A stretch of 22,440 nucleotides of DNA from a virus. Under the pieces are notes generated by a model. It saw nothing but the letters and a program-made list of their open reading frames with translations, was not told the DNA's origin and made no database searches. Positions 2,844 to 16,490 of this stretch are shown here, in pieces. Numbering within the stretch: position 1 is the first letter of the stretch; every line of letters begins with the position of its first letter. The stretch is taken from positions 1 to 22,440 of the IMG/VR virus record IMGVR_UViG_3300046011_011399, one strand, 5' to 3'. The translations under genes and the position numbers were made by a program.

Positions 2844-3312
2844 ATTTAATTAAACTTTTTACATTTGTTGGACTATGAAGAAAAGTTAAGTCAATTAATA
2901 CTAATTTGCCAACTACAGTATATCCTGCCTTTTCACATAATTTTTCAGCTGCATTCATAGTACCACCAGTAGCATAAACATCATCTACAATTACAACTTT
3001 ACCTTTTCCTGGTTGTATTTCTAAAGTATCTTCTCCATATTCTAGAGAATATGTTTCTGAAATTATAGGAGGTGGTAATTTTCCTTTTTTACGGCACATT
3101 ACTAAACCACCATTTGCACTTGCTAGTGCAGAAGCAAATATGAACCCTCTTGAATCAATTCCAACCCAGTAATCAGGATATTTAACTAAATTTTTCATTT
3201 CTTCAATTGCATGAGGAAATAAAGGTGATTTTAAAAGTGGGGATACATCTTTAAATGAGATTCCTGGTTGAGGAAAATCAGGTATTTCGTTGATAAATTT
3301 TTTCCAATTCAT
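2836..3312 (-). CDS. apt: Adenine phosphoribosyltransferase
   Basis: This 158-residue protein carries the full set of Apt landmarks. DFPQPGISFKDVSPLL is at the N-terminus (12-27) and GIDSRGFIFA at 51-60. The flexible-loop RKKGKLP follows (74-80), then ETYSLEYGEDTLEI (86-99). The PRPP-binding motif VVIVDDVYATGGT spans 106-118. It converts adenine and PRPP to AMP in the cytoplasm. Bacterial Apt is usually 170-180 residues, so this is a slightly trimmed but apparently intact version. Its start ATG shares one base with the stop of the preceding RmlC-like gene (TAATG), and its end overlaps the nucleosidase by 8 nt. The Apt-nucleosidase pairing suggests salvage of adenine released from SAM by-products during infection. 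The family call is very secure; that role is inference from the neighbours. Confidence 0.93.
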   Translation of the reverse strand: MNWKKFINEIPDFPQPGISFKDVSPLLKSPLFPHAIEEMKNLVKYPDYWVGIDSRGFIFASALASANGGLVMCRKKGKLPPPIISETYSLEYGEDTLEIQPGKGKVVIVDDVYATGGTMNAAEKLCEKAGYTVVGKLVLIDLTFLHSPTNVKSLIKYE

Positions 3313-3797
3313 TAATGTGAATTTTTATCTCTCTTTGATAATATAGGGTTGTCTATTGGCCAATATATGTTAATTTTTGGATCTTTCCAATTTAAACTAA
3401 ATTGATCTTTAACATCAGGATAATCCCCAGGGTATGACCATTTATAGAAAAATGTAGCTTCAGAGCTAAGTACTAAGTGACCATTAGCAAACATAGGAGG
3501 TACTAATACTTGTTTCCTGTTTTTACCTGTTAATATAATTGAATCCCATGTTAGATAAGTATCAGAAGACGGTCTATTATCAACAACCACCAAGTATATC
3601 TCACCTGCTAAGCAAGTAATTAGTTTCCATGCTTTAGAATCACCATGTAATCCTCTTAAAACATTTTGTTTAGAAACAGATACTTTATCATGATTGAAAA
3701 CTAATTCGTGTTCTTCTTGTTTGAATAAGGTGTATAACTCACCTCTATAATCTTCAAACGAATCAGGTTGAAATATTTTTACTTCAGAAAATATCAT
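3312..3797 (-). CDS. RmlC-like NDP-4-keto-sugar 3- and/or 5-epimerase
   Basis: This 161-residue cupin has the dTDP-4-dehydrorhamnose 3,5-epimerase outline. DYRGELYTLF opens it (16-25), followed by NVLRGLHGDSKAWKLI (45-60). H51 is the expected catalytic base and K58 a substrate-contact Lys. VPPMFANGHLVLS spans 99-111, NWKDPKINIYWPI 136-148 and LSKRD 153-157, where D157 could be the Asp partner of H51. The family's usual FAHGF is FANGH here, so binding near the base-stacking region may differ. The family epimerises C3 and/or C5 of 4-keto-6-deoxy nucleotide sugars. It follows the ColD-type dehydratase with a 14-nt overlap, so its substrate may be a 3-deoxy-4-keto sugar, on which only C5 could be epimerised. 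The exact position acted on cannot be read from sequence. Confidence 0.8.
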   Translation of the reverse strand: MIFSEVKIFQPDSFEDYRGELYTLFKQEEHELVFNHDKVSVSKQNVLRGLHGDSKAWKLITCLAGEIYLVVVDNRPSSDTYLTWDSIILTGKNRKQVLVPPMFANGHLVLSSEATFFYKWSYPGDYPDVKDQFSLNWKDPKINIYWPIDNPILSKRDKNSH

Positions 3798-4965
3798 TGT
3801 TAAGAATATTAATTAATGTATCGATTTTTTCTTGTTCTAATGTTGGATAATTACCTACATACCAACCAAAATGGTGTACATGGTCTACATTTTTAAAATC
3901 ATCATAATTAATATTATAGTTCTTTTTAAAATAAGGTTGTCTTAATTGATTTCCACCTCCAGATAGACCTCTTCTAAACTCAATTCCTTTTTCTTTTAAT
4001 ATAGTTTCTAATTTATCTCTTAATTCAAATGAACCTTCTTTTAATATTACAATAAAAGCATAATTACATTGACCCTCCATCTCAAAATCAGTAATATACT
4101 TATTTGAATCAAGACGCTCTATAAAGTAATTAAAATTATATATCCTATTTTTATTATTATTATCTAATTTTTTAATTTGAGATAAACCAATAACAGCATT
4201 TAATTCAGTACTTCTAAAGTTATGTGCTGGGTGGAGGAATATAAAGTCTTTATTTAAGTCAGGGTTTTCATCAATGATTTGTTGCTTAAAATTATCATTT
4301 GTCATTTCTCTAGTCATACCATGAGAACGAAGTGCTCTACATACTTGATAAAAATGTTCATCATTAGTACAAATCATACCACCTTCAATTGTTGACATAT
4401 GATGAGCAAAGAAAAAACTAAAGTTAGAAGCAAATCCAATTGAACCTACTTTTTGTCCTTTAAATGTTACTCCATGTGATTCACAAACATCTTCAATTAA
4501 TAATATATTTTTTTCTTTACATAATTCAATTAATTCATCAGTTAAAGCATTAATACCAAGTACATGAGTAAGAAATATTGCTTTAGTTTGTGGGGTGATT
4601 GCTGCTTTTAATTTATCAATATCAAATGATAAATTCTTTAAATTAATATCTACAAATACCGGTTTAAAACTAGCAAATAATACTGATGATATATCTGAAA
4701 TCCATGTCAATGGTGGAACTATAATTTCACCTTCACCATGGATGTAGTTTAAAGCTAACATTGTTAATTCGTTAGCTGATGCTCCGGAATTGAGCATTAG
4801 GTTATATTTTGTACCTAGCCATTCTCCCCATTCATTTTCAAATTCAACTACTTTAGGTCCATTAGTTAATTTTGGAATTGGATGTTGCGCTAGGAAATCA
4901 ATAAGAGCTTTAATATCTTGTTTATCAATATTATCACTCATTAAAGGTAAATAAAAGTTATTCAT
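3784..4965 (-). CDS. ColD-type PLP-dependent NDP-4-keto-6-deoxy-sugar 3-dehydratase (DegT/DnrJ/EryC1/StrS family)
   Basis: I place the start at the ATG at 4965, just after the preceding gene's TAA and an AAATAAA run. A longer in-frame version from 5004 would add 13 poorly conserved residues. The resulting 393-residue protein is close to ColD in length. Fold type I motifs of sugar aminotransferases are present: NSGASANELTMLAL (59-72), PPLTWISDI (84-92) and LIEDVCESHG (156-165). The usual PLP-binding Lys is replaced by His in FSFFFAHHMSTIEGGM (182-197; H188/H189). This His-for-Lys swap marks the dehydratases (ColD, E1/RfbH) that remove the C3 hydroxyl rather than transaminate. No Fe-S cysteine cluster is visible, which favours ColD over E1. 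The preceding genes are an E1-like TPP pair and the following gene an RmlC-like epimerase, suggesting one pathway. Confidence 0.85.
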   Translation of the reverse strand: MNNFYLPLMSDNIDKQDIKALIDFLAQHPIPKLTNGPKVVEFENEWGEWLGTKYNLMLNSGASANELTMLALNYIHGEGEIIVPPLTWISDISSVLFASFKPVFVDINLKNLSFDIDKLKAAITPQTKAIFLTHVLGINALTDELIELCKEKNILLIEDVCESHGVTFKGQKVGSIGFASNFSFFFAHHMSTIEGGMICTNDEHFYQVCRALRSHGMTREMTNDNFKQQIIDENPDLNKDFIFLHPAHNFRSTELNAVIGLSQIKKLDNNNKNRIYNFNYFIERLDSNKYITDFEMEGQCNYAFIVILKEGSFELRDKLETILKEKGIEFRRGLSGGGNQLRQPYFKKNYNINYDDFKNVDHVHHFGWYVGNYPTLEQEKIDTLINILNNDIF

Positions 4966-4972
4966 TTTATTT

Positions 4973-5509
4973 TTATTTTTCTCCATAATAATCACCCCAT
5001 TCAACTAAAATAGTAGGGCGGTTGTCTGTTCTTTCATAAGCATATTGAAATGCTTCAAATATTTGATGTGGTTCATCTAATTTAATAATATCAACCCAAT
5101 CACACATAGCTTTAAACCCACCAGTAAAATCAGCAATATGTTGATGTTGTGGGTGAAGTGGACGTTGTGCTCCAATTGATGTTCTAATAATTACTTTAGG
5201 TGTATATCCACCACCTGACATTATTTTCATTTTATCTAAGTGATTAACTACCTGATTTGCAGCTAATAGAAGGAAATTCCAGCGTGGGTAAATCGAAATA
5301 GGAACAGTACCATTTAATGCCATTCCAATTGTCATTCCCATTTGCATATCCTCATTTACAGGCATTTCTAACATTTTAGATGGATTAACATCTTTAACTG
5401 TGTTAGTCATTGCTGTACCAGCATATGTTACTGCTTGTCCTAGAAAGAATGTATCTGGCTTTTCATTAAGCCAATCCATTGATCGTTTTAATTCGTCAAA
5501 GTATTTCAT
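4973..5509 (-). CDS. Half-size pyruvate dehydrogenase E1 beta/transketolase Pyr-domain protein (copy A)
   Basis: This 178-residue protein matches only the N-terminal pyrimidine-binding domain of E1 beta subunits; the C-terminal transketolase domain of the usual roughly 325 residues is absent. FFLGQAV (21-27) is the beta-strand start. EMPVNEDMQMGMTIGMAL (48-65) holds E53, the expected glutamate that activates thiamine diphosphate. PRWNFLLLAANQVVNHLDK (75-93) corresponds to the E1 beta stretch 'F..A.DQi.N..aK'. It starts 2 nt after the E1 alpha-like gene and almost certainly forms a heterodimer or heterotetramer with it. A close relative lies at 12262-12798 in the same alpha-beta order. No E2 or lipoyl protein is nearby, so a PDH complex is unlikely. 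Transfer of a two-carbon unit to a sugar is the inferred role. Confidence 0.85.
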   Translation of the reverse strand: MKYFDELKRSMDWLNEKPDTFFLGQAVTYAGTAMTNTVKDVNPSKMLEMPVNEDMQMGMTIGMALNGTVPISIYPRWNFLLLAANQVVNHLDKMKIMSGGGYTPKVIIRTSIGAQRPLHPQHQHIADFTGGFKAMCDWVDIIKLDEPHQIFEAFQYAYERTDNRPTILVEWGDYYGEK

Positions 5510-5511
5510 AA

Positions 5512-6117
5512 TTAGAATTGAATTCGCTTACCTGCCCCAGCATGAGGGTACTTGGTTTCGTATTGGTAATAAATTATTTTTCTTGTTTCGTTTTTAAAGT
5601 ATAAATCGTTGTTCCATACTTCTTTAGTAACAGTACAAACCGATTTACTATTATCTTCAATTACATAAGTAATAGGTAAATCATGATTAATAGCATATTT
5701 CCAATTTTCAAAAAATGCACCTGTTTCAGATGTCATATCACCTACAAAGCACCAAACATGATTTGTTTGACCTTTACGTTTAATATCTAACGCCATACCA
5801 GTTGCAATAGGAATATTACCTGTTACAATAGCTGAAGAATATACATTATATTCAGGATAACAAAGTGTAATTGATTTACCAGCTAATATATCTGCTTTTA
5901 CTTGTTCTTGAGGTACACCTTTAAGTAAACACTGATAATGTGAACGCCAAGTACAGAATACCCAATCTTCAGGTTGTACTTTTTTAAATATATCAATCAT
6001 TTGCTCTTCATTTCCATAGTATAAATGGATGGGAGCTTTAATCATAGCGTTATTAAAACACTCCGCTATATCATCTTCAAAGGCGATTAATTGTTCTTTA
6101 GTTAGAAGATTATTCAT
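5512..6117 (-). CDS. Half-size pyruvate dehydrogenase E1 alpha-like TPP-binding protein (copy A)
   Basis: This 201-residue protein is the thiamine-diphosphate diphosphate-binding partner of the beta protein that follows. WVFCTWRSHYQCLLKG (52-67) matches the E1 alpha 'YR.Hg..L.rG' region. The TPP/Mg motif is read as GDMTSETGAFFE (126-137) running to EDN (154-156), in place of the canonical GDG...NN. Typical E1 alpha is 330-370 residues, so much of the C-terminal part, including the usual phosphorylation-loop region, is missing. It ends YPHAGAGKRIQF, almost identical to the end of the second copy at 12802-13431, so that tail is probably functional. It overlaps the radical SAM gene by 8 nt. TPP binding is well supported; the donor (pyruvate or other) is unknown. 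Confidence 0.85.
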   Translation of the reverse strand: MNNLLTKEQLIAFEDDIAECFNNAMIKAPIHLYYGNEEQMIDIFKKVQPEDWVFCTWRSHYQCLLKGVPQEQVKADILAGKSITLCYPEYNVYSSAIVTGNIPIATGMALDIKRKGQTNHVWCFVGDMTSETGAFFENWKYAINHDLPITYVIEDNSKSVCTVTKEVWNNDLYFKNETRKIIYYQYETKYPHAGAGKRIQF

Positions 6118-7645
6118 TTTCTATTATTTTTCTTCTTAATTTAACTTTAAGCATTTTATTAATATTATCAACTGCTATTTGTCCAAACTTAGCTTTTACC
6201 TTTTCTAAGAAAGGAGTATATGAGTGATATTCATCAAATGCTTTATCTCTAAATGCTAATACTTTAGCTCCAGTTAATGTTTCTGTCGGCAATGGTAAAG
6301 TATCATACCCATGAAACGAGTAACCTTCATAAGTATCAGGTAATAAAACACCATTTAAAACAGCATTTTTATACAACTGACTTCCAGGTAGGGCCATTGC
6401 TGCATATGCATTCCATCCAAAGGTACATAATTCTTTTGATAGCTCCAAAGTTTTTTGCATTGATTCTTCTGTATCTCCAGGTAATCCAAAAATATAATTT
6501 GCCATTACTTCAATATCAGCCTTATGTACTTGCTGGATTACTTGGGAGATATCAACATCTTCAAATTTACCTTTAGATACTTCTAGTCTTACATCTTTAT
6601 CTCCACTCTCAATACCTAAAGCTAACCATTTAATACCAGCAGAACGTACTAATTTTAATAATTCAGGACGTTTAACTGTATCCACTCTTGAGTAAGCCCA
6701 CATCCTTAATTTTTCACCATACCCTCTATCTCTTAACATTTCACATAAAGGTACATAATATTTTCTATTTAATAAAAATAATTCATCTGTAATTTTAATA
6801 GTGTAAACTCCTAATTCAACTAACTTATCAAATTCTTTAATAATAAACTCAGGAGACCAATAACGCATAGCACTATAATTTCCTGCTACTCCAATTTCAT
6901 CTTCATCATTTCTATTTATGATATTAATCATACAGAAATCACAACCAAATTGACATCCTAAAGATGTTTGAATAGCAGCATAAGGTGAACGTTTATTCTG
7001 GTCATATTCAGCATGCCACATTGGAGCTCTATATAAGTCAAGTGGTTTTTCTTTCATTGGAAGTAAATCCCAAGCATAACCAGGGAGATCAATATCCATT
7101 CTATCGTTTGGTACTACCTTTTCAGCTCCATTCATTTTAGGAACTCCATTTTTTCTCCAAGCAATACCTTTAATATGATCTAAATTATTAATATCAATTA
7201 CGTCTTGTGCTAATACATTTCTAAGAGCATAAACACCTTCATTAGTAAAAGCAAAATCAATTGATGACTCTTCTTTAAGAGCTTTAACCGGAACCGCTTG
7301 CACGTATGATCCTACATAAGCAATAGGAATAGTTATACCTGCTTCTTTAATATAATTAGAAACATAAGTAGCACCACTCATATTTACAGTACCAGAATTC
7401 ACATTTTGTCCGTATACTACAAAACATATTAATCGTGGGTTTAATGATTTAATTCTATTTACAATTTCATCATTTTTTAATTGTTCTGCATTGACATCAA
7501 TAAGATTAACAGTGTAATTTACTGACCTACAAGATTGGGCAAGTAATAAAGCCCAAGTAGGGGGTTCAATAGCAGCATAATTATTAGCTAAATCTTGATA
7601 AATACCGGTAGCATTACCGGGTGCTATAAATAAAATATCTATCAT
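6110..7645 (-). CDS. Cobalamin-binding radical SAM enzyme (B12-dependent class B methylase type)
   Basis: This 511-residue protein has two domains. The N-terminal 150 residues resemble a B12-binding Rossmann domain: ILFIAPGNATGI opens it, AIEPPTWALLLAQ (25-37) follows, then VNLIDVNAEQ (46-55) and IAYVGSYVQAVP (108-119). No DxHxxG base-off motif is visible, as is common in this class. The radical SAM core starts with CQFGCDFC (231-238), whose C231, C235 and C238 bind the [4Fe-4S] cluster. LALGIESGD (about 340-348) and ANYIFGLPGDTEESM (about 382-396) are typical later elements. Many members methylate unreactive carbon or phosphorus centres, and others do rearrangements or ring closures. Here it precedes the E1-like pair of module A, so a sugar intermediate is a reasonable substrate guess. 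It would depend on host cobalamin and release 5'-deoxyadenosine. Confidence 0.85.
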   Translation of the reverse strand: MIDILFIAPGNATGIYQDLANNYAAIEPPTWALLLAQSCRSVNYTVNLIDVNAEQLKNDEIVNRIKSLNPRLICFVVYGQNVNSGTVNMSGATYVSNYIKEAGITIPIAYVGSYVQAVPVKALKEESSIDFAFTNEGVYALRNVLAQDVIDINNLDHIKGIAWRKNGVPKMNGAEKVVPNDRMDIDLPGYAWDLLPMKEKPLDLYRAPMWHAEYDQNKRSPYAAIQTSLGCQFGCDFCMINIINRNDEDEIGVAGNYSAMRYWSPEFIIKEFDKLVELGVYTIKITDELFLLNRKYYVPLCEMLRDRGYGEKLRMWAYSRVDTVKRPELLKLVRSAGIKWLALGIESGDKDVRLEVSKGKFEDVDISQVIQQVHKADIEVMANYIFGLPGDTEESMQKTLELSKELCTFGWNAYAAMALPGSQLYKNAVLNGVLLPDTYEGYSFHGYDTLPLPTETLTGAKVLAFRDKAFDEYHSYTPFLEKVKAKFGQIAVDNINKMLKVKLRRKIIENE

Positions 7646-8607
7646 TTTATTAATTTATAATTAACTGTTTTATAATTAAATTCATCATTAGAGAGATAAA
7701 TAGCTTTCTTTAGGAAATTAAGTAATTTTTTTGGCTCAATATGATTTTCATTTTCATCATATATTGATTCATCTCTAGGCATTAATTTAGTTGGTAGCCA
7801 CTCTCCATATCCAAATCCACTTTCTTTAGCTTCTTGACTTAATAATCTTTCTTCTGCTGTTATTTTGGATTTAAATAAATGTTTCCAACTAATACTATCA
7901 TTATATTGAATTTCCCCTATAAATCCTATACTGTGGCCATCAGCAAATCCAATATGTTTTAACATAATATCTTTACTATGTACTACATATTTTTTGCCTA
8001 ATGACGCTGCTAAATAACTGTAAACCGTTTCTGTACAGTGAGTAGCAAATATATCTGGGACTATTTTATGGTTAAAGTTTTGATATATAAGTTTATCAAA
8101 TAGTAAAACATGCATATTTGCTGTTTTCCCTATATTAATAGCAAAATGATCTTTACTTAATAATTCATCTAATTCACTCCAAACATCAGCATACCAACCA
8201 TCTAAACCATGATCATTATCTACTAAAGCATAGGTTAAAGCACTATTACTATTTTGATGTAAATAAGTTAATTTATCTAATACCCTAGTGTCAGTACCGA
8301 ATTTAACATCTGAAGCAATGTATAGATAACCGTCAAATTCTCCTAATTGTTCAGTACATATTTGTGCTGTATGGTTACAAGTTACGTTAACAGGTAATAT
8401 ATCTTCAATCCAATTAAAAACGATATTATTGTATTTATCTTTGAATTTTTCTAACTCAATCTTACTACTTTCAGAAACAATACATCCTGAAACAGCAACT
8501 GTAAAGGTAGAATATTCTTGAATTAAAATATCTTGGAGATGATTTTTCCACATCTCCAAGTTATTGTATTTAATTCCACAAATATTGTATATTACTAATA
8601 TATTCAT
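7642..8607 (-). CDS. Probable GT-A-type glycosyltransferase
   Basis: This 321-residue protein was not recognised as a named family. It opens with MNILVIYNICG, resembling a GT-A Rossmann-like strand, and has LGEFDGYLYIASDVKFG (88-104), where the SDV triad (D100 central) sits where GT-A enzymes place a metal-binding DxD. HCTETVYSYLAASLGKK follows later, and a C-terminal stretch is rich in Asp/Glu and Lys. No signal peptide or membrane segment is visible. It begins where the preceding SDR gene stops (TAATG) and overlaps the radical SAM start by 4 nt (ATGA), so it is cotranscribed with sugar-modifying genes. The glycosyltransferase assignment rests on the single DxD-like site and the context. Donor, acceptor and linkage are unknown, and a structural rather than catalytic role is possible. 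Confidence 0.5.
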   Translation of the reverse strand: MNILVIYNICGIKYNNLEMWKNHLQDILIQEYSTFTVAVSGCIVSESSKIELEKFKDKYNNIVFNWIEDILPVNVTCNHTAQICTEQLGEFDGYLYIASDVKFGTDTRVLDKLTYLHQNSNSALTYALVDNDHGLDGWYADVWSELDELLSKDHFAINIGKTANMHVLLFDKLIYQNFNHKIVPDIFATHCTETVYSYLAASLGKKYVVHSKDIMLKHIGFADGHSIGFIGEIQYNDSISWKHLFKSKITAEERLLSQEAKESGFGYGEWLPTKLMPRDESIYDENENHIEPKKLLNFLKKAIYLSNDEFNYKTVNYKLIK

Positions 8608-9545
8608 TATAAATTTGTAAAGTCTTTATTTTTAAACTTAGTAATCAATTGATATCCTTTAATCAATTCTTGAATACCACCTTCAAGTGTAAATTGTGGT
8701 TGCCATCCAAATGATTCTAATTTAGCATTTGAAACAATATAATTTCTTTGATCAAAATCCTGTTTAAAGTCGTTTTGAACAATAACTAACTCAGGAATAT
8801 ATTTTTTAATAGTTTCAGCTAATACTAATTTAGAGCAATTTGCTGATGATAGACCAACATTAAAGGCATTATTATTGCATTTGTCATAATTCTCAATCAT
8901 AAATAGGAATGTATTGGCAATATCTCTAACATGAATATAATTGCGAACAAAATGAGACTCAAATAATACTAAATAACCATTTTCTAATGACTTATAAACA
9001 AAATCATTAACTAATAAATCCATCCTCATTCTATAAGACATACCAAATACAGTTGCTAACCTTAAAGTAATTCCATTACCTGAGTCTAATACTGCTTTTT
9101 CAGCATCACATTTTGTTTCAGCATATAATGAAAGCGGCTTAAATGGAGACTCTTCAGTAATAATCTCAGTTGATGAACCATACTGAGAGTTAGTGTTTGG
9201 AACCATTACCATTTGATTTTTAGTAATCCATTTAGTAATGTTTTTTACTTGTTCGTAATTAACTTTAACTGTTAATTCAGGTTGTGCTTTACAAGCAGGC
9301 ATACCTACGATAGCAGCTAGAGGAATAATAACATCATGAGACTCAACTAACGGTTTTAAAGTTGATTCATTAGTCACATCACCTAATACAAAATTAAAAT
9401 TTGGATGATAAGTAAAAGGAGCAACTGATGTTTGTTTGTAGATTAGATTATCAATAACTGTTACGCGATAATCTTTATTTAATAATACTTCTGTTAAAAC
9501 GGAGCCTAAATAACCGGCTCCACCGGTAATCAAAACACTTGTCAT
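8607..9545 (-). CDS. Extended SDR NDP-sugar epimerase/dehydratase/reductase
   Basis: This 312-residue extended short-chain dehydrogenase has the NAD(P)-binding GGAGYLG (8-14), with D32 at the end of beta-2 suggesting NAD preference. It also has the LAAIVGMPACK loop (76-86), NTNSQYG (117-123) and the YAETK catalytic motif (Y141, K145). FNVGLSSANCSK lies near the C-terminus. The closest general class is UDP-glucose 4-epimerase/NDP-sugar dehydratase-like enzymes. The exact reaction (4-ketoreduction, epimerisation or dehydration) is not determinable. It is the first gene after a 35-nt gap holding the AT-rich motif at 9560-9572, so it may lead a second transcription unit running to the left edge. 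In this locus it could supply or finish one of the deoxysugars. Confidence 0.8.
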   Translation of the reverse strand: MTSVLITGGAGYLGSVLTEVLLNKDYRVTVIDNLIYKQTSVAPFTYHPNFNFVLGDVTNESTLKPLVESHDVIIPLAAIVGMPACKAQPELTVKVNYEQVKNITKWITKNQMVMVPNTNSQYGSSTEIITEESPFKPLSLYAETKCDAEKAVLDSGNGITLRLATVFGMSYRMRMDLLVNDFVYKSLENGYLVLFESHFVRNYIHVRDIANTFLFMIENYDKCNNNAFNVGLSSANCSKLVLAETIKKYIPELVIVQNDFKQDFDQRNYIVSNAKLESFGWQPQFTLEGGIQELIKGYQLITKFKNKDFTNL

Positions 9546-9559
9546 AATCTATTTGTTTT

Positions 9560-9572
9560 ATATAAATATATA
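9560..9572 (-). promoter_or_regulatory. Promoter-like AT motif TATATATTTATAT, 14 nt before the SDR start
   Basis: The minus strand reads TATATATTTATAT from 9572 to 9560, then 14 nt, then the ATG at 9545. The same 13-mer occurs at the same distance before the start at 20840. These are the only two gaps over 12 nt in the window. The plus strand of the motif contains TATAAATA (9561-9568), the T4 late promoter core, but pointing antisense. Its exact role is unknown. Confidence 0.45.
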
Positions 9573-9580
9573 AGTATCTA

Positions 9581-10450
9581 TCAGAAATTATTAATATTAA
9601 TAAATTCTTTAAAAAATGCTTCTAAATTATTTAAAGTTTTATTTTTAAATACCTCATTATAATTATGTTCTATATACGGTAATTTTTCATAATATACTTC
9701 AGGTGTTAATAAATTAACTATAGATATTAATTCTTCAGTAGAATTAAATCTAATTATACCTCTTTCATTATAACCTAGTTCTTCTAAATTAGAACAACCC
9801 CAGTATATAGGAAGCGTTTTAGTAGCGAAAGCATCACCTATTTTTTCTGTATACCAATTTTTATGATATACATTTTCTACAGCAATGTGGAACATAGATT
9901 CATTAAAGCATTTTTGTTTTGCTCCCCATATTCTGTCTGGCCTTCCAACTCCTCCTTTAGCAAAGTTATCTTTATTAAAATCTTCTAGTGTGTGAAACCA
10001 TTTTTTAGGAATAGTAATTTGATCTCCTATTTTATAAATCTCCTGTCTAAACTTATGACCTTCAGATATTGTTTTAGCTCCACTTAAAAAACTAACTTCA
10101 AATTTTAATTCTTTTTTCTTAGTAAATTCTTCAAATTGCTTATCTGTTACCTCAGCCATTCCTCCTTGATCTACATTAAATGGAAATAAAATAGCATTAG
10201 GACAATTTTGTAATAATATATCACTCCAAGTTAATATACCTGTAAATAATTGGTGATTATTAAGTACCCAAGAATGAATTCCAAAAAATTCATTTGGTTC
10301 AGATAACCAAATAAAATTGTAAGGATTTATTTGAAGTTGTTCTATACTTTGAGGAACATAATCAAAGAATAATGTTATTGGTTTATTTAGTGCTTTTAAT
10401 CCATTATAAAATGGATCATCTGCTGGTCTAAAGTTAGAAAATATGGTCAT
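9581..10450 (-). CDS. GT10-type glycosyltransferase (alpha-1,3-fucosyltransferase-like)
   Basis: This 289-residue protein carries the signature C-terminal block of GT10 fucosyltransferases. FHIAVENVYHKNWYTEK (187-203) matches the family's FENs...dYvTEK donor-binding motif. It is followed by DAFATKTLPIYWG (206-218), matching 'a....PIvyG', and NLEELG. The N-terminal half (WLSEPNEFFGIHSW, 48-61) would form the acceptor domain of a GT-B fold. GT10 enzymes transfer L-fucose from GDP-fucose, and related members may use other 6-deoxy sugars. No GDP-fucose synthesis genes (Gmd/Fcl) are obvious in the window, so the donor may come from the host or be one of the deoxysugars made by this locus. There is no membrane tail, so it is probably cytoplasmic. 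It overlaps the preceding gene by 4 nt (ATGA). Confidence 0.78.
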   Translation of the reverse strand: MTIFSNFRPADDPFYNGLKALNKPITLFFDYVPQSIEQLQINPYNFIWLSEPNEFFGIHSWVLNNHQLFTGILTWSDILLQNCPNAILFPFNVDQGGMAEVTDKQFEEFTKKKELKFEVSFLSGAKTISEGHKFRQEIYKIGDQITIPKKWFHTLEDFNKDNFAKGGVGRPDRIWGAKQKCFNESMFHIAVENVYHKNWYTEKIGDAFATKTLPIYWGCSNLEELGYNERGIIRFNSTEELISIVNLLTPEVYYEKLPYIEHNYNEVFKNKTLNNLEAFFKEFININNF

Positions 10451-11361
10451 ATTATTTTTTTATCGATTAAATGTTGAACTCCTTTATTTAAATATTCCTG
10501 CATTTTAGATTCAAATACTTGTCTTTGATTAGGTATATCATTTAAAACAACCATATCTCTATAATACTTAGAAAATCCTTTATCTTTAAGTGGTCCTATT
10601 TGATACTCACAAGTTAATTGATTTTCTAAAATGTATTGTTGAAAATCAACCCCTTTACTTTTAGCATGCTGTAATAGTATCATTGTATACCAATCACTAG
10701 GACCATATCCATTCCAATCATCATGTATGTTCCAAAAATCAATCCAAGTATTTTTATTATATAAATCCATCCATCCTGCCCACTTATGAATATTAATAGG
10801 AGTTAATTTAATTTCTTTATCAGATGTTTTCATAAAATGCCTTACGTCAAATGTATCTAATTTATTCCAATCATTATAAGCAACAGTATTAAAATCAGGA
10901 TGAGAAATAACATCCCAGGTTTGATCCCAAAGTTTTGGAACCTGAGGTGTAATAGTAAAATATTTATTTTGTATTTGTTTAGCGCCTGCGATTAAATAAG
11001 CTATTAAGTTTTCACTAAAGTACATATCAACATTTACATAGGAATAATAATCAATATTATCTTCAATACCTTCTCTTTGAGTATCTAAATGACCATATAA
11101 TTTATCTTCATTATATATTTTAAAGCGACACACATAATCTTTTAATAGTGGTTGAAGTGCTTCAAATTTAGATATAAAGAATTCCTTAGGTATTTTAGTT
11201 TTTTCCCAATTAATAATATGACTTGATAAATTTAAAGTTACATCTATATACACTTTATCTTCATCACTCAAATAATATTTTGATTTTTTTAATTGAGTAA
11301 AGGATAATAAAGCATAATCTAAGTCCCAAGGCATTAAATGAGAAATAATTTTATAATTCAT
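10447..11361 (-). CDS. Uncharacterised protein, possible GT-A glycosyltransferase
   Basis: I chose the ATG at 11361, which gives MNYKIISHLMPW and 304 residues and overlaps the preceding SDR gene by 11 nt. A longer frame begins with TTG at 11376 and looks less likely. No named family was recognised. It starts like a GT-A enzyme listing sites (MPWDLDYALLSFTQL, 10-24), and YYSYVNVDMYFSENLIAYL (105-123) could place a VNVD metal-binding site. Aromatic-rich KWAGWMDLYNKNTW (193-206) and NGYGPSDWYTMILL (217-230) resemble the acceptor end of glycosyltransferases. It contains many Trp and Tyr residues and no membrane segment. It lies between a GT10 enzyme and an SDR. The function is inferred from position and faint motif layout only. 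Confidence 0.45.
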   Translation of the reverse strand: MNYKIISHLMPWDLDYALLSFTQLKKSKYYLSDEDKVYIDVTLNLSSHIINWEKTKIPKEFFISKFEALQPLLKDYVCRFKIYNEDKLYGHLDTQREGIEDNIDYYSYVNVDMYFSENLIAYLIAGAKQIQNKYFTITPQVPKLWDQTWDVISHPDFNTVAYNDWNKLDTFDVRHFMKTSDKEIKLTPINIHKWAGWMDLYNKNTWIDFWNIHDDWNGYGPSDWYTMILLQHAKSKGVDFQQYILENQLTCEYQIGPLKDKGFSKYYRDMVVLNDIPNQRQVFESKMQEYLNKGVQHLIDKKII

Positions 11362-12262
11362 TTTTACAATAATCAATAGTTTTTAAAATACCCATTTCTA
11401 TATTAAATTTAGGTTTTATTTTAGTTACCTTTATTATCTTTGAATTATCACAACACATATAAGGAGAGCTATTTTTTCTATTTAAAGAAGGATCAAATGT
11501 AATTATACTTTTACTATTTGTTAACTTATGAATAGTATTAACAATATCCTTTAATTTATATCTATACCCAGAAGATATGTTATAAACACCTGTATATTCA
11601 CTTAATATTAAATTATAAACTAATTCAATAAAATCATCTACATACAGATAATCAATAATTTTATTACATTCGTCTAATGTAATATCTTCGTCTTTTAAAC
11701 ATTTTCTTATAATTGAAGGTATTAATCTTGTTTTGACATCCCCAGGACCATAATTGTAACCTGGTCTTAACCACACCCATTCAATGTTATATGAGTTGCA
11801 AAGTAATTTACTATAGTTTTTAAGAGTTAATTTTGATATTCCGTATAAATCATCTGGTGATGGAGTTGAGAATTCTTCTACTGGATAGAGATGGTTTCCA
11901 TATTCTAGGATTGTTCCGAAGCCTACATATTTAGGTTTTTTAGGCAGGTCCTTAATCATTTCTATAAAGGCAATTCCCGGTTCTATATTATCATAGAATT
12001 GCTTTGCATCATTTATATCTTTATAACTATTACCTCCACTCCACCCGTTATATAATATTATGTCTGGGGTAAATGAGAATATTTTATCTTTAAATTTAGT
12101 TAGATCGTTTGCATACCCATAATCAAATTGGATTTGATCTAATATATCAGTAATGTTATTTGTTGAACCAGAGAATACATACAGAGAGTGACCTTCAGAT
12201 AATAGTCTTCTAATTAGATGAGAACCTAAGAATCCATTTCCCCCTGTTATTAATATATTCAT
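11351..12262 (-). CDS. Extended SDR NDP-sugar 4-ketoreductase/epimerase-like protein
   Basis: This 303-residue SDR has the NAD(P)-binding GGNGFLG (7-13), a substrate loop with NGWSGGNSY (72-80), and GFGTILEYG (114-122), which carries the Ser/Thr position as T117. The catalytic YGISK (Y140, K144) follows, then RPGYNYGPGDVKTRLIP (about 166-182). The replacement of the usual 'nlaa' loop by YNGWSGG is distinctive. Enzymes of this outline include CDP-abequose and paratose synthases, which reduce a 4-keto group after 3-dehydration, and general NDP-sugar epimerases. It starts where the module B beta gene's TAA shares a base with its neighbour's ATG, so it directly follows the dehydratase and TPP pair in transcription order. 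Reduction of a branched or 3-deoxy 4-keto sugar is the favoured inference, though not the only one. Confidence 0.72.
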   Translation of the reverse strand: MNILITGGNGFLGSHLIRRLLSEGHSLYVFSGSTNNITDILDQIQFDYGYANDLTKFKDKIFSFTPDIILYNGWSGGNSYKDINDAKQFYDNIEPGIAFIEMIKDLPKKPKYVGFGTILEYGNHLYPVEEFSTPSPDDLYGISKLTLKNYSKLLCNSYNIEWVWLRPGYNYGPGDVKTRLIPSIIRKCLKDEDITLDECNKIIDYLYVDDFIELVYNLILSEYTGVYNISSGYRYKLKDIVNTIHKLTNSKSIITFDPSLNRKNSSPYMCCDNSKIIKVTKIKPKFNIEMGILKTIDYCKNEL

Positions 12263-12798
12263 TATTTTGTTTTAGCATAATCAGCAAATTCAACTAAAAT
12301 TGTACTAACACCATCTTCACGTCCCAATGCTTTCTCATAAGCAGGTATTATTTGTTCTGGTTCGTGTAATTCAATTACTTCTGTATTTTTAAGCATAGAA
12401 CGAAAAGCATCTGAGAAATTACCTTTGTGTTGGCATTGAGGATCTACTGGATATTCACTTCCAACTGCTACTCTGATTATTACTTTAGGTTTGCATTTAC
12501 CATCAGACATAGTAATAAACTTATCTAAGTGGTTTACTATCTGGTCGGTTCCCATTAATAAGAAATTCCACCTAGGATATGTTGATACGGGAATTAATCC
12601 TTCAATAGCCATACCATTTGCTAATCCTGATTGTAGATATTCTGCCACTGGTAATTCTATTCTTTTATTAGATGGAAGATGAGACAATGAATCATATAAT
12701 CCAGTTCCTTCATATTCTACAGCCTGTCCTATAAACACTGTTTTAGGGTGCTCAGCCAAGAAACTCATTGCTCGTTTTAATTCATCAAAATATCTCAT
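12262..12798 (-). CDS. Half-size pyruvate dehydrogenase E1 beta/transketolase Pyr-domain protein (copy B)
   Basis: This 178-residue protein is the same length as copy A and clearly homologous. It shares the RYFDELKR start, FIGQAV (22-27), ELPVAEYLQSGLANGMAI (48-65) with the catalytic-type E53, and YPRWNFLLMGTDQIVNHLDK (74-93). As in copy A, the C-terminal transketolase domain is missing. Residues lining the centre differ (PVAEYLQSG versus PVNEDMQMG), so the two copies have probably diverged in substrate. It starts 3 nt after its alpha partner and is the last gene of the run dehydratase, RmlB, alpha, beta. It probably combines with the alpha protein to bind TPP between subunits. A role in adding a two-carbon unit to the sugar made by the two preceding enzymes is inferred. 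Confidence 0.85.
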   Translation of the reverse strand: MRYFDELKRAMSFLAEHPKTVFIGQAVEYEGTGLYDSLSHLPSNKRIELPVAEYLQSGLANGMAIEGLIPVSTYPRWNFLLMGTDQIVNHLDKFITMSDGKCKPKVIIRVAVGSEYPVDPQCQHKGNFSDAFRSMLKNTEVIELHEPEQIIPAYEKALGREDGVSTILVEFADYAKTK

Positions 12799-12801
12799 AT
12801 A

Positions 12802-13431
12802 TTAAAATTGAACCCTCATTCCAGCACCAGCATGGGGATATTTTTCATTTGTATATTGGTAATAATATAAATTCTTTTGTTTCAATATACCACCATTATA
12901 TTCAGATTCCAAATAATATGGTTTTATTCTATTCCAAATATCTGGAGTAGGAGTACAAACTGATTTTTTGTTATCTTCAACTATAAAGGTAATAGGTAAA
13001 TCATGATTTAGACTATATTTGTATGCTTCATGGAATGCTCCTGTTTCAGCACTCATATCTCCAACCCAACACCATACTCTGTTTAATTTATTTTGTAGTT
13101 TAAGAGCAAATGCTATTCCTGTAGCGATTGAAGGGATACCACCTACTATTGAGCTACATATAAATTTATACTCAGGTAAATTCATAACCATAGATTTACC
13201 TTTCATAATATTTTCTCTTATTACTTTTTTAGGAATGCCTTTAAGTAATCCTTGGTAATGGTTTCTCCAGGTGCAACATACCCAATCATTTTCAATATCA
13301 ATATCGTTAAATACTTCTATTATTAATTCTTCATTTCCAGAATATAAATGTATAGGAGCCTTAATTTCACCAGCGTTAAATGTTTCTCCAATTTCTGTTT
13401 CAAATGTTATTAATTCATCTTTAGTTACCAT
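12802..13431 (-). CDS. Half-size pyruvate dehydrogenase E1 alpha-like TPP-binding protein (copy B)
   Basis: This 209-residue protein is a diverged copy of 5512-6117. Shared blocks are IKAPIHLYSGNEE (23-35), WVCCTWRNHYQGLLKG (50-65), the TPP motif from GDMSAETGAFHE (124-135) to EDN (152-154), KSVCT (156-160) and the tail YPHAGAGMRVQF. An eight- to nine-residue insertion lies near 176-185 (SEYNGGILK) relative to copy A. Length is far below normal E1 alpha. It begins within the stop of the RmlB-type gene (7-nt overlap), tying it to module B. The two alpha copies look around half identical by eye, so the duplication is old or the copies were acquired separately. TPP binding is well supported; the reaction is inferred. 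Confidence 0.85.
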   Translation of the reverse strand: MVTKDELITFETEIGETFNAGEIKAPIHLYSGNEELIIEVFNDIDIENDWVCCTWRNHYQGLLKGIPKKVIRENIMKGKSMVMNLPEYKFICSSIVGGIPSIATGIAFALKLQNKLNRVWCWVGDMSAETGAFHEAYKYSLNHDLPITFIVEDNKKSVCTPTPDIWNRIKPYYLESEYNGGILKQKNLYYYQYTNEKYPHAGAGMRVQF

Positions 13432-14372
13432 ATAAATTTATTTTTATAGTATTTTACAATACCAGGTAATTCAGCATCAAATATTGCTGTTGGTTTCCAA
13501 CCTAATGCTCTTAATTTAGAATCATCTAAAGCATAACGAGCATCTTGTCCTATTCTAGAGAAAGACAAATCAACATATTTTTCTATATTATCATCTCCAT
13601 TATATTCTTTAACTATTTTTTTAACAGTATCATAGTTAGATTGTTCAAATCCACCTGCAATATTGTATATTTCATTTTTTATTCCTGATTCAATAATAGT
13701 AATGATAGCAGCAGCTGTATCAGCAGCATGTAACCAATTTCTAATTGGTGTACCATTATTATGAATTGGAATTTTTCTTCCTAAATTAAAATATTTACAT
13801 GATTTAGGAATTAGTTTTTCAACATATTGTCCTATACCATAATTGTTAGTTGGTCTAACAATAATATAAGGTACATTATAAGTTCTGCCCCAAGCCAAAA
13901 CTAGCATATCAGCAGCTGCTTTAGTTGCTGAATATGGATTAGATGGTTTAAGTAGGTCTGTTTCAATATGGGCGCCATTATCTATATCTCCATAAACTTC
14001 ATCTGTTGAGAAATGAAGTAAAGTGGGTGTTTTAGATGATTCATATCTAAAATTTCTAAGTAGTTCAAGTAGGTGATGAACCCCATTAATATTAGAATGA
14101 ACAAAATCGTCACTATTAGCAATTGAATTACCTACGTGTGTTTCAGCTGCTGTGTTAATGATATAATCACAATCATGAATAAATGGAATATTATTTATAT
14201 CACATTGAACAAATGAAAAATTCTTGTATTTATTAAATTCATCTAATAATTCAGTATTAGCAGCATATGTTATTTTATCTATACCTTTAACATACCATCC
14301 CTTTTCAAGACAAGCCCTAGTAACGTATGAACCTATAAATCCTAAACAACCAGTTACGTATACTACTTTCAT
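13425..14372 (-). CDS. NDP-glucose 4,6-dehydratase, RmlB type
   Basis: This 315-residue extended SDR shows the RmlB-like NAD-binding GCLGFIG (8-14), TAAETHVGNSI (74-84) and the catalytic triad region STDEVYG (122-128), where T123, D124 and E125 match the residues that act in dTDP-glucose 4,6-dehydratase. NPYSATKAAADM (145-156) supplies Y147 and K151, and VRPTNNYG (172-179) follows. It oxidises C4, removes water across C5-C6 and re-reduces, giving an NDP-4-keto-6-deoxyhexose. CDP-glucose dehydratases usually lack the DE pair, so a dTDP or UDP substrate is more likely. It sits between the E1/RfbH-type dehydratase (ATGA overlap) and the TPP pair. No RmlA-type nucleotidylyltransferase is in the window, so the activated glucose must come from elsewhere. 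Confidence 0.88.
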   Translation of the reverse strand: MKVVYVTGCLGFIGSYVTRACLEKGWYVKGIDKITYAANTELLDEFNKYKNFSFVQCDINNIPFIHDCDYIINTAAETHVGNSIANSDDFVHSNINGVHHLLELLRNFRYESSKTPTLLHFSTDEVYGDIDNGAHIETDLLKPSNPYSATKAAADMLVLAWGRTYNVPYIIVRPTNNYGIGQYVEKLIPKSCKYFNLGRKIPIHNNGTPIRNWLHAADTAAAIITIIESGIKNEIYNIAGGFEQSNYDTVKKIVKEYNGDDNIEKYVDLSFSRIGQDARYALDDSKLRALGWKPTAIFDAELPGIVKYYKNKFIW

Positions 14373-15733
14373 AGTTGAGATATAAATTTATTTAATACTG
14401 TTTCTATATAATCTGTTTTTTCTTTTGTTATTACAGGTGATGTACCTAAAAAGAAGGTATCTGTTGTAACTTTTCTTGCAACTGGGTATTTTGTAATTAC
14501 TTCTTGTGGATCCATAAGTCCTTCATAAGCGGGTTGAAGCATAATATTGCCTGCGAAGTAAGGTCTAGTTTGGATTTTATTTGCTTCGAAGAACTGGCAT
14601 ATATCAGAACGTTTAAATGGAGCTCCATCTTTAACTGTTATTGGGAAAGCAAACCAATCAACATCGGCTCCGGGTTGTGCTTCGTGTAGATGAAAATATT
14701 GTTTATGTTTACTAAAAGCAGCAAATAAATTTTTATAATTTTCTCTACGTTTAATTCCTATTTCTTCTAGTTTTTCTATTTGAACAAGACCAATTGATGC
14801 TTGTAACTCAATTGGTTTTAAATTATATCCAATTTCCTCATAAACGTATTTGTGATCAAATATTTCGTTTGGAAGTGAAGGTAACCAATTACTAAATCTA
14901 CAACCACATGATCCTTTTTCTAATAAGTTTTGTTTACCAATGCAATAACATCCTCTACCCCATTCTCTAAAACTACGAATAATACGTTCTGTGTTTAAAT
15001 CTTTCACAGCTACAAATCCACCTTCACCCATTGTAATATGATGTGCTGGGTAGAATGAGCAACTAGCCATTTCACCAAATGACCCTAGTGGTTTGCCTTC
15101 AAATGAAGATCCTAAAGCATCACAGCAGTCTTCTAATAGAATTAGTTTATATTTTTCAATTATTTCCATTAGTCGATTCATATTAGGTGGATTGCCTAAT
15201 ACGTGAGCGAATGTAATAATTTTAGCATCAGGATTACCAATACAGGCTTGTTCTACTTGATCTAAATCTAGATTAAGTGTATCTAACTCAATATCAACAA
15301 ATATAGGAGTAAATCCTAATTGAATAATAGGATTAATTGTAGTTGGAAATCCTGCTATTGGAGTAATTACTTTAGTTCCTTTAGGTAGATTTAAACCACG
15401 TTTAGAGGTTAAAGCCAACATCATTAATAAATTAGCACTTGAACCACTATTAGTTAATAAACCATATTCTTTATTAAATAACTTAGGAAACTTAGTTTCA
15501 AATTTATTTGCTTCGGCTCCTAATACTAACCATTCACTTAGTAATGTTTTAACAGCAGCTATGTATTCATTAGAATCAAAATAAGGACCAGCATATTGAA
15601 CCCAATCTTTACCTGCTTCCCAAGTTTTTTTAGAATGTTTTTGAGAAATATATCTATCTACTAAAGATAATATTTCTCTTTCTGTAATAGGGTTACTACT
15701 GTAGTTTTCTAAATCTTGATATAGTTCTTGCAT
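14369..15733 (-). CDS. E1/RfbH-type [2Fe-2S], PMP-dependent NDP-4-keto-6-deoxy-sugar 3-dehydratase
   Basis: This 454-residue DegT-family protein is close in length to E1/RfbH (about 437). NSGSSANLLMMLAL (95-108), LLEDCCDALGSSFEGKPLGS (199-218) and especially CSFYPAHHITMGEGGF (225-240), with H231/H232 in place of the PLP Lys, identify a 3-dehydratase. FREWGRGCYCIG (255-266) matches the 'DWGRDCWC' cysteine region that binds the [2Fe-2S] cluster in E1. C262 and C264 are there, but the next cysteines, C276 and C278, lie 11 or more residues on rather than 7, so an insertion alters the loop. HKYVYEEIGYNLKPIELQAS follows as in E1. E1 needs a reductase (E3) to deliver electrons, and none is encoded here. 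SpnQ is reported to work with ferredoxin/flavodoxin reductases, so host or phage ferredoxin may serve. Confidence 0.88.
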   Translation of the reverse strand: MQELYQDLENYSSNPITEREILSLVDRYISQKHSKKTWEAGKDWVQYAGPYFDSNEYIAAVKTLLSEWLVLGAEANKFETKFPKLFNKEYGLLTNSGSSANLLMMLALTSKRGLNLPKGTKVITPIAGFPTTINPIIQLGFTPIFVDIELDTLNLDLDQVEQACIGNPDAKIITFAHVLGNPPNMNRLMEIIEKYKLILLEDCCDALGSSFEGKPLGSFGEMASCSFYPAHHITMGEGGFVAVKDLNTERIIRSFREWGRGCYCIGKQNLLEKGSCGCRFSNWLPSLPNEIFDHKYVYEEIGYNLKPIELQASIGLVQIEKLEEIGIKRRENYKNLFAAFSKHKQYFHLHEAQPGADVDWFAFPITVKDGAPFKRSDICQFFEANKIQTRPYFAGNIMLQPAYEGLMDPQEVITKYPVARKVTTDTFFLGTSPVITKEKTDYIETVLNKFISQL

Positions 15734-15736
15734 AAA

Positions 15737-16108
15737 TTATTTTTGTGAATCACCTTTCCAAACACGATATGAGTCAGAATCAAAGTGAGTAGTTGATACT
15801 TCAAATACAATACCATCAGTTAAAGCAATTAATTGATGTGGTTGTCCTGGTCTTTGTCTTACTATATCACCTGGTTTGAGATGTTGTTCTATTGTGTCTG
15901 CAGTTTCAGTATCAATCCATCTGTATGTAAATTCACCTTTATCAACGTACCATGTTTCATCTTTAATCATATGGTAATGCATACTAAATTTACATCCTGC
16001 TTTGAATATGAGGAGTTTACCACAGTATTTATCATTATTTTCAATGATTAATTCTTCACCCCAACCTTTAGGTACTTTACAGCCCTCACAAACTATTGGT
16101 TTTTCCAT
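15737..16108 (-). CDS. Single-domain cupin, mannose-6-phosphate isomerase type II-like
   Basis: This 123-residue protein is one cupin barrel. KGWGEELIIEN (14-24), KLLIFKAGCKFSMHYH (31-46), DETWYV (50-55), LKPGDIVRQRPGQPHQL (77-93) and VFEVST match the C-terminal isomerase domain of mannose-1-phosphate guanylyltransferase/isomerases. The predicted metal ligands are H44, H46, E51 (the Glu of DETW) and H91. It might isomerise a sugar phosphate or bind an NDP sugar. It overlaps the nucleotidylyltransferase gene by 23 nt, an unusually long overlap that points to coupled expression, and precedes the 3-dehydratase by 3 nt. A role in making or trimming the sugar 1-phosphate activated by its neighbour is plausible. 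Small lone cupins are functionally diverse, so substrate and reaction stay open. Confidence 0.65.
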   Translation of the reverse strand: MEKPIVCEGCKVPKGWGEELIIENNDKYCGKLLIFKAGCKFSMHYHMIKDETWYVDKGEFTYRWIDTETADTIEQHLKPGDIVRQRPGQPHQLIALTDGIVFEVSTTHFDSDSYRVWKGDSQK

Positions 16109-16490
16109 AACTTAAGATTTTAGTTGTTGATTTACCAGGTATTTTTTCAAAGAATTTAACTTCAGGAATATGTTCAATTCCAATTATAGAATGATAACTG
16201 TAATCATCTCCTATAACCATTAAATCGGGACCATATTCTCTAATACTATTAACTAATTCTTCATTACTACTGAAAGTAACAACAGAATTAATATACTTGA
16301 TTGAATATAAGAACTCTACTCTGTCTTTCAAAGTATTATATGGTCTATCTTTTCCTTTTTTTTCTTTAATTCTTTCATCTGTGTCTATTCCTACTCGAAC
16401 ACTACCAAATAAAGCAGCATATTCAAGTAGTCGGATGTGACCTAAATGAAGGATATCAAATGAACCATTTACCCATACTTTCTTTACCAT
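16086..16490 (-). CDS. Sugar-phosphate nucleotidylyltransferase, HldE C-terminal/TagD type
   Basis: I start this at the ATG at 16490 (MVKKVWVNGSFD, 134 residues); an upstream TTG at 16502 is less likely. NGSFDILHLGHIRLLEYA (8-25) contains the HxGH nucleotide-binding motif (15-18). VRVGIDTDERIKEKKGKDRP (31-50) resembles the HldE 'SD.Sv..lKG..RP' stretch. VIGDDY (92-97) and the C-terminal KSTTKI (120-125) match the family's ISTTxI-type motif. HldE-C adenylylates heptose 1-phosphate to ADP-heptose, and TagD makes CDP-glycerol. The kinase at 1508-2293 is of HldE-N type, so the two may be separated halves of a HldE-like activity lying 14 kb apart. The overlap with the cupin suggests that the sugar phosphate is further processed. 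The nucleotide and substrate are uncertain. Confidence 0.8.
   Translation of the reverse strand: MVKKVWVNGSFDILHLGHIRLLEYAALFGSVRVGIDTDERIKEKKGKDRPYNTLKDRVEFLYSIKYINSVVTFSSNEELVNSIREYGPDLMVIGDDYSYHSIIGIEHIPEVKFFEKIPGKSTTKILSYGKTNSL

Follow-up and report, generated by a model that had tools for sequence, protein, structure and literature searches.

Enzyme pairs related to the E1 component of pyruvate dehydrogenase (PDH) are known to branch sugars in antibiotic producers. The members of this alphaKADH2 group, namely AviB1/AviB2, Pau11/Pau12, EvdU5/EvdS3 (a proposed case; PMC10338323) and the pairs of aldgamycin and kibdelomycin biosynthesis, are alike in having E1-like alpha and beta subunits in a keto-sugar pathway and in providing a two-carbon (C2) branch, and KbDH-alpha/beta has been assayed and transfers the C2 unit from pyruvate to ketones (PMC12247030). 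YerE of the yersiniose pathway transfers activated acetaldehyde, derived from pyruvate, to CDP-3,6-dideoxy-4-keto-D-glucose (PMC12247030, PMC4753412); it is a single-chain enzyme of the decarboxylase superfamily (PMC12247030) and a flavoprotein (PMC4753412). The window analysed here is the complete 22,440-base virus record IMGVR_UViG_3300046011_011399. It encodes two half-size E1-type pairs, alphaA/betaA (module A) and alphaB/betaB (module B), each beside a sugar 3-dehydratase with histidine at the catalytic lysine position (His-type), as the original prediction, made from the DNA letters, had stated. With moderate confidence, we propose that both pairs are E1-type core carboligases dependent on thiamine diphosphate (ThDP) that add a C2 unit to the C4 ketone of 3-deoxy-4-keto nucleotide sugars, a hexose in module B and a heptose in module A. 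This proposal draws on the homologies and folds of the proteins, on their residues, on the order of the genes and how far it is conserved, and on a division into two clades, all of which were computed or observed.

All genes named below are encoded on the minus strand. AlphaA (5512..6117, 201 amino acids [aa]) and alphaB (12802..13431, 209 aa) match Pfam E1_dh with 53.0 and 53.4 bits (cut-off 22) and share 54% identity. BetaA (4973..5509) matches Transket_pyr with 38.8 bits (cut-off 27). BetaB (12262..12798) falls just short of that cut-off with 25.5 bits, yet it is 48% identical to betaA and scores 45.7 bits with the PDH E1 beta model PRK09212, although both beta subunits lie far below the cut-off of that model (321). 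Similarly, the pairs score far below the NCBIfam equivalog cut-offs for E1. Both beta subunits stop at 178 aa, which corresponds to the PYR domain of E1 beta without Transketolase_C, so that the label 'half-size' given to the four proteins beforehand is apt. AlphaFold2 models of alphaA and betaA have mean predicted local distance difference test values of 94.1 and 94.2, respectively. The best Protein Data Bank (PDB) match of the alphaA model is human PDH E1 alpha (3exe_A; template modelling [TM] score by query, 0.83), and all 50 of the 50 matches listed are from E1 entries of PDH or branched-chain 2-oxo acid dehydrogenase, one of them an integrative model. For betaA, E1 beta chains make up the five top matches (TM score by query, 0.82-0.88), followed by 1-deoxy-D-xylulose-5-phosphate synthase, the half-size pair AzcB/AzcC, a split transketolase and others. 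Comparison with PDH E1 by profile search and structure prediction, which the original prediction had put forward, therefore places the pairs in the E1 family, with E1 alpha and beta folds for the two modelled subunits.

The residues expected of such enzymes are conserved. H31, R58, N156 and a C-terminal PH motif (H192) are invariant in 50 aligned alpha sequences, as are E53 and H124 in 46 aligned beta sequences, and profile alignments place alpha H31/R58 on human E1 H63/R90 and beta E53/H124 on E59/H128. We take the human positions to be the catalytic His63 and Arg90 of E1 alpha and Glu59 and His128 of E1 beta. The pairs thus appear, from sequence and models, to be E1-type ThDP enzymes cut down to the catalytic PP/PYR core. 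The final Gly of the ThDP GDG motif is replaced by Met in most alpha sequences, which counts against the proposal, and alphaA just clears Pfam DXP_synthase_N (21.8 bits; cut-off 21.2), which speaks against a pure E1 enzyme. The DXP_synthase_N match also bears on an alternative that we consider quite unlikely, in which the pairs would hand over a hydroxyacetyl (ketol) group, as split transketolases do, or a larger unit derived from a 2-oxo acid, instead of a pyruvate-derived acetyl group. A role in branching keto sugars has been proposed for split transketolases of the miharamycin and amipurimycin pathways, longer donors occur in the YerE group (ErwE) (both PMC12247030), and fused relatives of our pairs are annotated as 'transketolase central region'. 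However, alphaA scores 94.8 bits with PDH_E1_alph_y versus 20.7 bits with transketolase, the folds listed for it are exclusively E1, and the reviewed E1-type sugar branchers all yield C2 branches (PMC12247030), which argues against this alternative.

In gene context, each pair is an E1-type pair in an NDP (nucleoside diphosphate)-4-keto-sugar pathway, which is what characterizes the alphaKADH2 group, and the likeness to AviB1/AviB2 noted before our analysis holds to this extent. It does not amount to plain membership, because Pau11/Pau12 are full-size (325/345 aa; PMC4425429) compared with 201-209/178 aa here, and the published sizes set the half-size pairs apart. In addition, the alphaKADH2 group has been described from antibiotic producers, whereas the half-size pairs come from viruses and uncultured bacteria and archaea and lie beside 3-dehydratases.

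The module A dehydratase (3784..4965) is most similar in the PDB to ColD (2gms, 188 bits), an enzyme dependent on pyridoxal or pyridoxamine phosphate. Its open reading frame (ORF; 3784-5004) matches DegT with 244.6 bits and carries His at the catalytic Lys position, SFFFAHHMSTIEGG; it opens at a TTG codon at 5004, and the likely true start is the ATG at 4965, which matches the start sites of relatives. The module B dehydratase, of the RfbH/E1 type (14369..15733), matches DegT with 251.8 bits, the NCBIfam RfbH model NF011936 with 458.8 bits (above the cut-off of 423) and PDB 3bcx with 334 bits, and also has His at this position, SFYPAHHITMGEGG. The cysteines EDCC and CxC...C are found in 55 of 59 RfbH relatives (at least 50% identity) and, by eye, in the window, where the stretch ahead of the final Cys is extended relative to 3bcx; these cysteines are presumably the residues that bind the [2Fe-2S] cluster. 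DegT proteins with His for the catalytic Lys are regarded as 3-dehydratases (PMC8987622).

To describe the association between pairs and dehydratases, we examined 104 viral loci with an alpha gene obtained in two scans (24 A and 80 B loci), one of which comprised the best 80 of 100 relatives. Two converse sets consisted of the best 80 of 99 relatives of RfbH and the best 80 of 191 relatives of a ColD-like seed; the latter, a His-type 'aminotransferase' of phage ACG-2014f, served as converse control only. Relatives from the genome scans are those among the matches listed. The counts refer to loci, not to independent viruses or lineages, and include near-copies (e.g. L017/L018, L080/L081 and L101/L102); both alpha scans and the RfbH-seeded set share contigs. 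A beta gene is present in 103 of the 104 alpha-bearing loci, and DegT lies in the fetched flanks of 88, in 55 of them within 1 kb. The nearest DegT is His-type in all 86 readable cases (two are cut off), as is every readable DegT in these loci (97/97), with a search profile that was itself built from His-type proteins. Three kinds of protein fill this slot: ColD-like, RfbH with cysteines and, in 12 loci, a divergent RfbH-like protein without them. The seven Lys-type DegT proteins found by the profile were in ColD-seeded (six) and RfbH-seeded (one) loci, and none in the 104 pair-bearing loci. Conversely, alpha was found in 16 of the 80 RfbH-seeded and none of the 80 ColD-like-seeded loci. The pair accompanies the dehydratase and not the reverse, which fits a pair acting downstream on the dehydratase product. 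Together with the tree described below, this gene context makes the coupling of pair and 3-dehydratase real. In Synechococcus phage ACG-2014f itself (L212:6022-7215), the 'aminotransferase' has the active site FYFGHHMT and is therefore probably a His-type sugar 3-dehydratase.

Several points weigh against a universal coupling. The His-type counts stand without an unbiased base rate of His- versus Lys-type DegT in viruses. No DegT was found in the fetched stretch of 16 of the 104 loci; ten of these have less than 6 kb on a side, whereas the flanks of the other six exceed 6 kb in both directions. Among the six, L070 and L073 lie on the contigs of L161 and L144, respectively, where RfbH is present further along, and L024, L032, L056 and L074 have no RfbH in the available sequence and remain exceptions.

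The predicted lack of E2, lipoyl and E3 components was borne out. E2 (PF00198) was absent from 29 records including the window, with the control found in 10 of 14 genomes; lipoyl (PF00364), Pyr_redox_dim (PF02852) and Transketolase_C (PF02780) were each absent from 10 records including the window, with controls in 14 of 14 genomes, and in all of these searches the records may be fragments. A PDH or acetoin dehydrogenase complex was therefore rejected. A YerE-like single-chain enzyme of the decarboxylase or acetolactate-synthase type was likewise rejected, as E1_dh and Transket_pyr sit on two genes. We also regard it as very unlikely that the pairs serve general metabolism, as decarboxylases or reduced PDH- or acetoin-type enzymes, and are part of a glycan cluster by chance. 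The half-size ThDP pair AzcB/AzcC (PDB 9u8q) gives this idea some substance, as its PYR-type subunit is of similar length (165-170 aa) and it is, by PDB title, an alpha-imino acid decarboxylase and not a sugar enzyme, and some relatives of our pairs occur outside sugar-dehydratase contexts; identity to AzcB/AzcC is 12-14%. The missing complex parts, the steady pairing with His-type dehydratases and the overlapping genes argue against this reading.

In module B, RfbH is followed by an RmlB-type NDP-hexose 4,6-dehydratase (13425..14372; TIGR01181 291.9 bits, below the cut-off of 365.1; PDB 2hun 230 bits; TDEVYG and YSATK motifs), then by alphaB and betaB, and by SDR2, a short-chain dehydrogenase/reductase (SDR; 11351..12262), directly after betaB. 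This arrangement is widely kept. Of 82 loci, 71 have RmlB (45) or RfbH (26) directly before alphaB; the RmlB neighbours share 62-83% identity with that of the window, and 44 of the 45 show the same overlap. The gene after betaB encodes an SDR in 64 of 81 B cases, of which 53 were recognized by a simple pattern and 11 by eye, and in five cases no further ORF lies within reach. SDR2 matches SDR profiles below their cut-offs and lacks the catalytic DE pair of 4,6-dehydratases; its position is where, by analogy, a reductase of an acetyl branch would be expected. The predicted functions of module B thus follow the logic of the yersiniose pathway (4,6-dehydratase, E1/E3, YerE and reductase), with 4,6-dehydration, C3 deoxygenation, C2 transfer and reduction in the same order, but with an E1-type pair in the place of YerE. 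The pathways also differ in that yersiniose synthesis has an E3-type reductase. A candidate reductase for RfbH (PF00970, FAD_binding_6) was absent from 29 records, which may be fragments, and no match above cut-off was found for a glucose-1-phosphate cytidylyltransferase; both results count against the proposal. Without such a reductase, RfbH would need host electrons; a relative, SpnQ, reportedly works with ferredoxin or flavodoxin systems (PMC8987622).

Two variations were observed downstream of the pair. In L040 (9180-10964) and L097 (9153-10175), the gene immediately following betaB encodes a ThDP enzyme of the acetolactate-synthase type, of which the L097 ORF spans only the first part of the family; ORFs in L094 (6372-7394) and L096 (1630-2652) begin, by eye, with the same residues as that of L097, and such an enzyme is also encoded approximately 8 kb after the pair on a Pelagibacteraceae contig (L124:18789-20471). 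Two kinds of ThDP enzyme are thus encoded close together. In L027 (9180-9722) and L031 (9184-9726), a DJ-1/PfpI-type protein replaces the usual SDR directly after betaB.

The two modules are present with the extents first described (A, 6117-3784; B, 15733-12262), but the gene set of module A proved to be wider, with a radical S-adenosylmethionine (SAM) enzyme, SDR1, an RmlC-like epimerase and a PfkB kinase. SDR1 (8607..9545), a putative NDP-heptose C4-dehydrogenase, matches PDB 6vo6 with 338 bits (52% identity over 302 columns). With a threshold of 40% identity, it is found in 20 of 24 A loci compared with 0 of 80 B, 1 of 79 RfbH-seeded and 1 of 80 ColD-seeded loci. PDB 6vo6 is presumably Cj1427, the GDP-heptose C4-dehydrogenase. 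The RmlC-like protein (3312..3797), whose probable substrate is a 4-keto-heptose, matches its eight best PDB chains with 147-153 bits and the remaining RmlC chains with 92 bits or less. Five of the eight are named GDP-heptose or GDP-4-keto-heptose epimerases (one has both names); the other three, including the top two, are named thymidine diphospho-4-keto-rhamnose epimerases and are presumably the Campylobacter jejuni enzymes DdahB/MlghB. A heptose-type kinase (PfkB/HldA-like or HddA-like) occurs in 18 of 24 A loci versus 3 of 80 B loci, and PfkB itself in 15 of 24 versus 1 of 80. In bacterial A-type loci, HddA-like genes were found in five of eight and HddC-like genes in four of eight, with both together in four.

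To judge from the proteins most similar to SDR1 and to the RmlC-like protein, the module A acceptor is probably a heptose. Cj1427 of C. jejuni, acting with a C3-dehydratase, yields GDP-3-deoxy-4-keto-heptose from GDP-heptose in vitro (PMC10680097; C3-dehydratase, PMC10440746), and this GDP-heptose modification (Cj1427, HS:5 C3-dehydratase and C3/C5-epimerases) is mirrored by SDR1, the ColD-like enzyme and the RmlC-like protein. The accessible portions of the C. jejuni papers mention no C2 transfer, whereas module A has alphaA/betaA. From sequence relationships and this analogy, 3-deoxy-4-keto-heptose is the likely acceptor and a branched nine-carbon sugar the likely product. Two facts qualify this assignment: the names of the heptose genes rest on NCBIfam scores below family cut-offs, including those in L112 and L115, where the HddA/HddC families rank first or second; and HddA and HddC were not found in the window. 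The C. jejuni GDP-heptose is made via HddA/HddC-type steps, whereas the window has a PfkB kinase resembling HldA/RfaE-I (1508..2293; TIGR02198 139.4 bits, cut-off 345) and an RfaE-II-like nucleotidyltransferase (16086..16502; TIGR02199 85.6 bits, cut-off 181.5), both below cut-off, which suggest activation of the ADP type.

In addition, RmlB could feed both modules. This would be the case if C2 transfer were correct but both modules acted on hexoses, SDR1 and the RmlC-like protein included, which we judge unlikely. Among the three SDRs of the window examined, RmlB alone has the 4,6-dehydratase DE motif, and ColD, the closest PDB match of the module A dehydratase, itself acts on GDP-4-keto-6-deoxymannose (PMC10440746). 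The distribution of genes points the other way, as the RmlB of the window belongs to module B and an RmlB-like gene is present in only 5 of 24 A loci, far fewer than have SDR1 or a heptose-type kinase, and the scores of the RmlC-like protein separate the 4-keto-heptose epimerase group from other RmlC chains. The earlier idea of two different branched sugars is therefore still the best reading, with the amendment that the module A acceptor is probably a heptose.

For the donor, acceptors, products and destination, we infer the following scheme. The donor of each pair would be a 2-oxo acid, pyruvate being the most likely, from which the pair would transfer an activated C2 unit to the C4 ketone of the 3-deoxy-4-keto nucleotide sugar made by the adjoining dehydratase, giving a C4-acetyl branch and a tertiary alcohol. 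In module B, an NDP-hexose would undergo 4,6-dehydration by RmlB and C3 deoxygenation by RfbH with electrons from a host reductase; after C2 transfer by alphaB/betaB, the SDR would reduce the acetyl group to hydroxyethyl, yielding a yersiniose-like octose. In module A, NDP-D-glycero-D-manno-heptose would be oxidized at C4 by SDR1 and deoxygenated at C3 by the ColD-like enzyme, with optional epimerization by the RmlC-like protein, and alphaA/betaA would then form a branched nonose, which a B12-binding radical SAM enzyme may modify further. Glycosyltransferases of the same gene run would transfer the sugars to a glycan of the host surface or virion. We know of no precedent for C4-branched nonoses.

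A tree of 52 joined alpha and beta rows, in which the L017 row represents the B pair of that locus, places the two pairs of the window in separate clades, A (support 95/89) and B (100/100). Recent duplication of one module was therefore rejected. Clade A is mostly ColD-associated and includes contigs labelled Bacteroidales, Verrucomicrobia, SAR116, Pelagibacteraceae, Acidimicrobiales and Parcubacteria; clade B is RfbH-associated and all viral in the tree set. Besides the window, a single further virus (L017/L018, record G005; one of the 28 records searched) was seen to carry both pairs. Fused alpha-beta relatives form one clade comprising cyanophages S-SM2 and P-TIM68, a Prochlorococcus contig and two contigs labelled Kaiserbacteria and Parcubacteria, and four of these five members have a PfkB heptose-kinase-like gene. 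We tentatively suggest, with somewhat less confidence than in the proposal above, that the half-size pairs are an unrecognized family of ketone-accepting ThDP carboligases, with a hexose clade B and a heptose clade A making C4-branched nonoses with the help of a B12 radical SAM enzyme, one of each being present in this virus.

Parts of the family do not conform to this picture. Some bacterial contigs may be mis-binned virus, and the clade A rows L115 and L124 have no DegT match. Outside the two clades, the pairs of L117 and L118 lie with SDRs and no adjoining 3-dehydratase, and the fused forms adjoin a Zn-alcohol dehydrogenase in place of a 3-dehydratase. In L126 (1525-4696, labelled Deltaproteobacteria) and L127 (6626-10935, labelled Desulfobacterales), the pair is beside radical SAM-like genes with a glycosyltransferase-like gene nearby, and no sugar dehydratase was seen by eye. 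In all, the relatives that are not fused and come from contigs labelled archaea, Omnitrophota and Desulfobacterales are beside SDR or radical SAM-like genes. Therefore, not every member works with a 3-dehydratase.

The fused genes of S-SM2 and P-TIM68 belong to PHROG 34187, which matches all four subunits of the window (approximately 40% identity in alpha). They encode a single chain, whereas the window pairs are two chains. Their neighbours are a Zn-alcohol dehydrogenase and heptose genes, and no annotated 3-dehydratase is present in the stretch examined. In GenBank, they are annotated as 'transketolase central region' without an assigned function; the accessible portion of the S-SM2 paper mentions lipopolysaccharide clusters of unknown use and does not contain the word transketolase (PMC3037559). 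Our literature search, in a library with few subscription papers, yielded no report of such chemistry in a virus. The claim that the system was undescribed in phages thus holds for function, but not for the genes, as fused homologues are already in cyanophage GenBank records.

The long ORFs of the window are almost all on the minus strand, and from 16502 to 1508 there are 19 genes that overlap or are separated from their neighbours by at most 35 bases. The B12-binding radical SAM enzyme (6110..7645; Pfam Radical_SAM 67.3 bits, B12-binding 38.2 bits) is encoded in 18 of 24 A loci. The window also encodes a nucleosidase of the methylthioadenosine/S-adenosylhomocysteine (MTA/SAH) type (2265..2843; Pfam PNP_UDP_1 47.4 bits; nucleosidase models 30-52 bits, each below cut-off) and an adenine phosphoribosyltransferase (APRT; 2836..3312; NF002636 171.2 bits, above the cut-off of 125). 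Where an A locus has the radical SAM gene (18 loci), the nucleosidase accompanies it in nine cases and APRT in seven, whereas the six A loci that lack the gene have neither, some loci being cut short. Neither was found in the 80 B loci. The two enzymes may recycle 5'-deoxyadenosine or SAH from the radical SAM enzyme. The window further has a weak GT10-like glycosyltransferase (9581..10450; Pfam Glyco_transf_10 23.8 bits, cut-off 23.9) and two conserved neighbours (7642-8607 and 10447-11376, in 8 and 11 of 24 A loci, respectively) for which neither Pfam nor NCBIfam gave a match at the limits applied. No gp23 match was found in the window; nine of the 29 records searched have one, so that some relatives are T4-like.

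Half-size pairs are present on numerous virus contigs as well as in bacteria and archaea that have not been cultured, and the family library searched assigns them no function (PHROG 34187). If our proposal is correct, a minimal E1 core of approximately 380 residues in two chains would build tertiary alcohols on sugars, providing small carboligases for ketone acceptors and new surface sugars, and the two clades with their different presumed acceptors would allow a direct comparison of C6 versus C7 specificity. Viruses would then carry most of the route to rare branched sugars, perhaps altering host or virion glycans.

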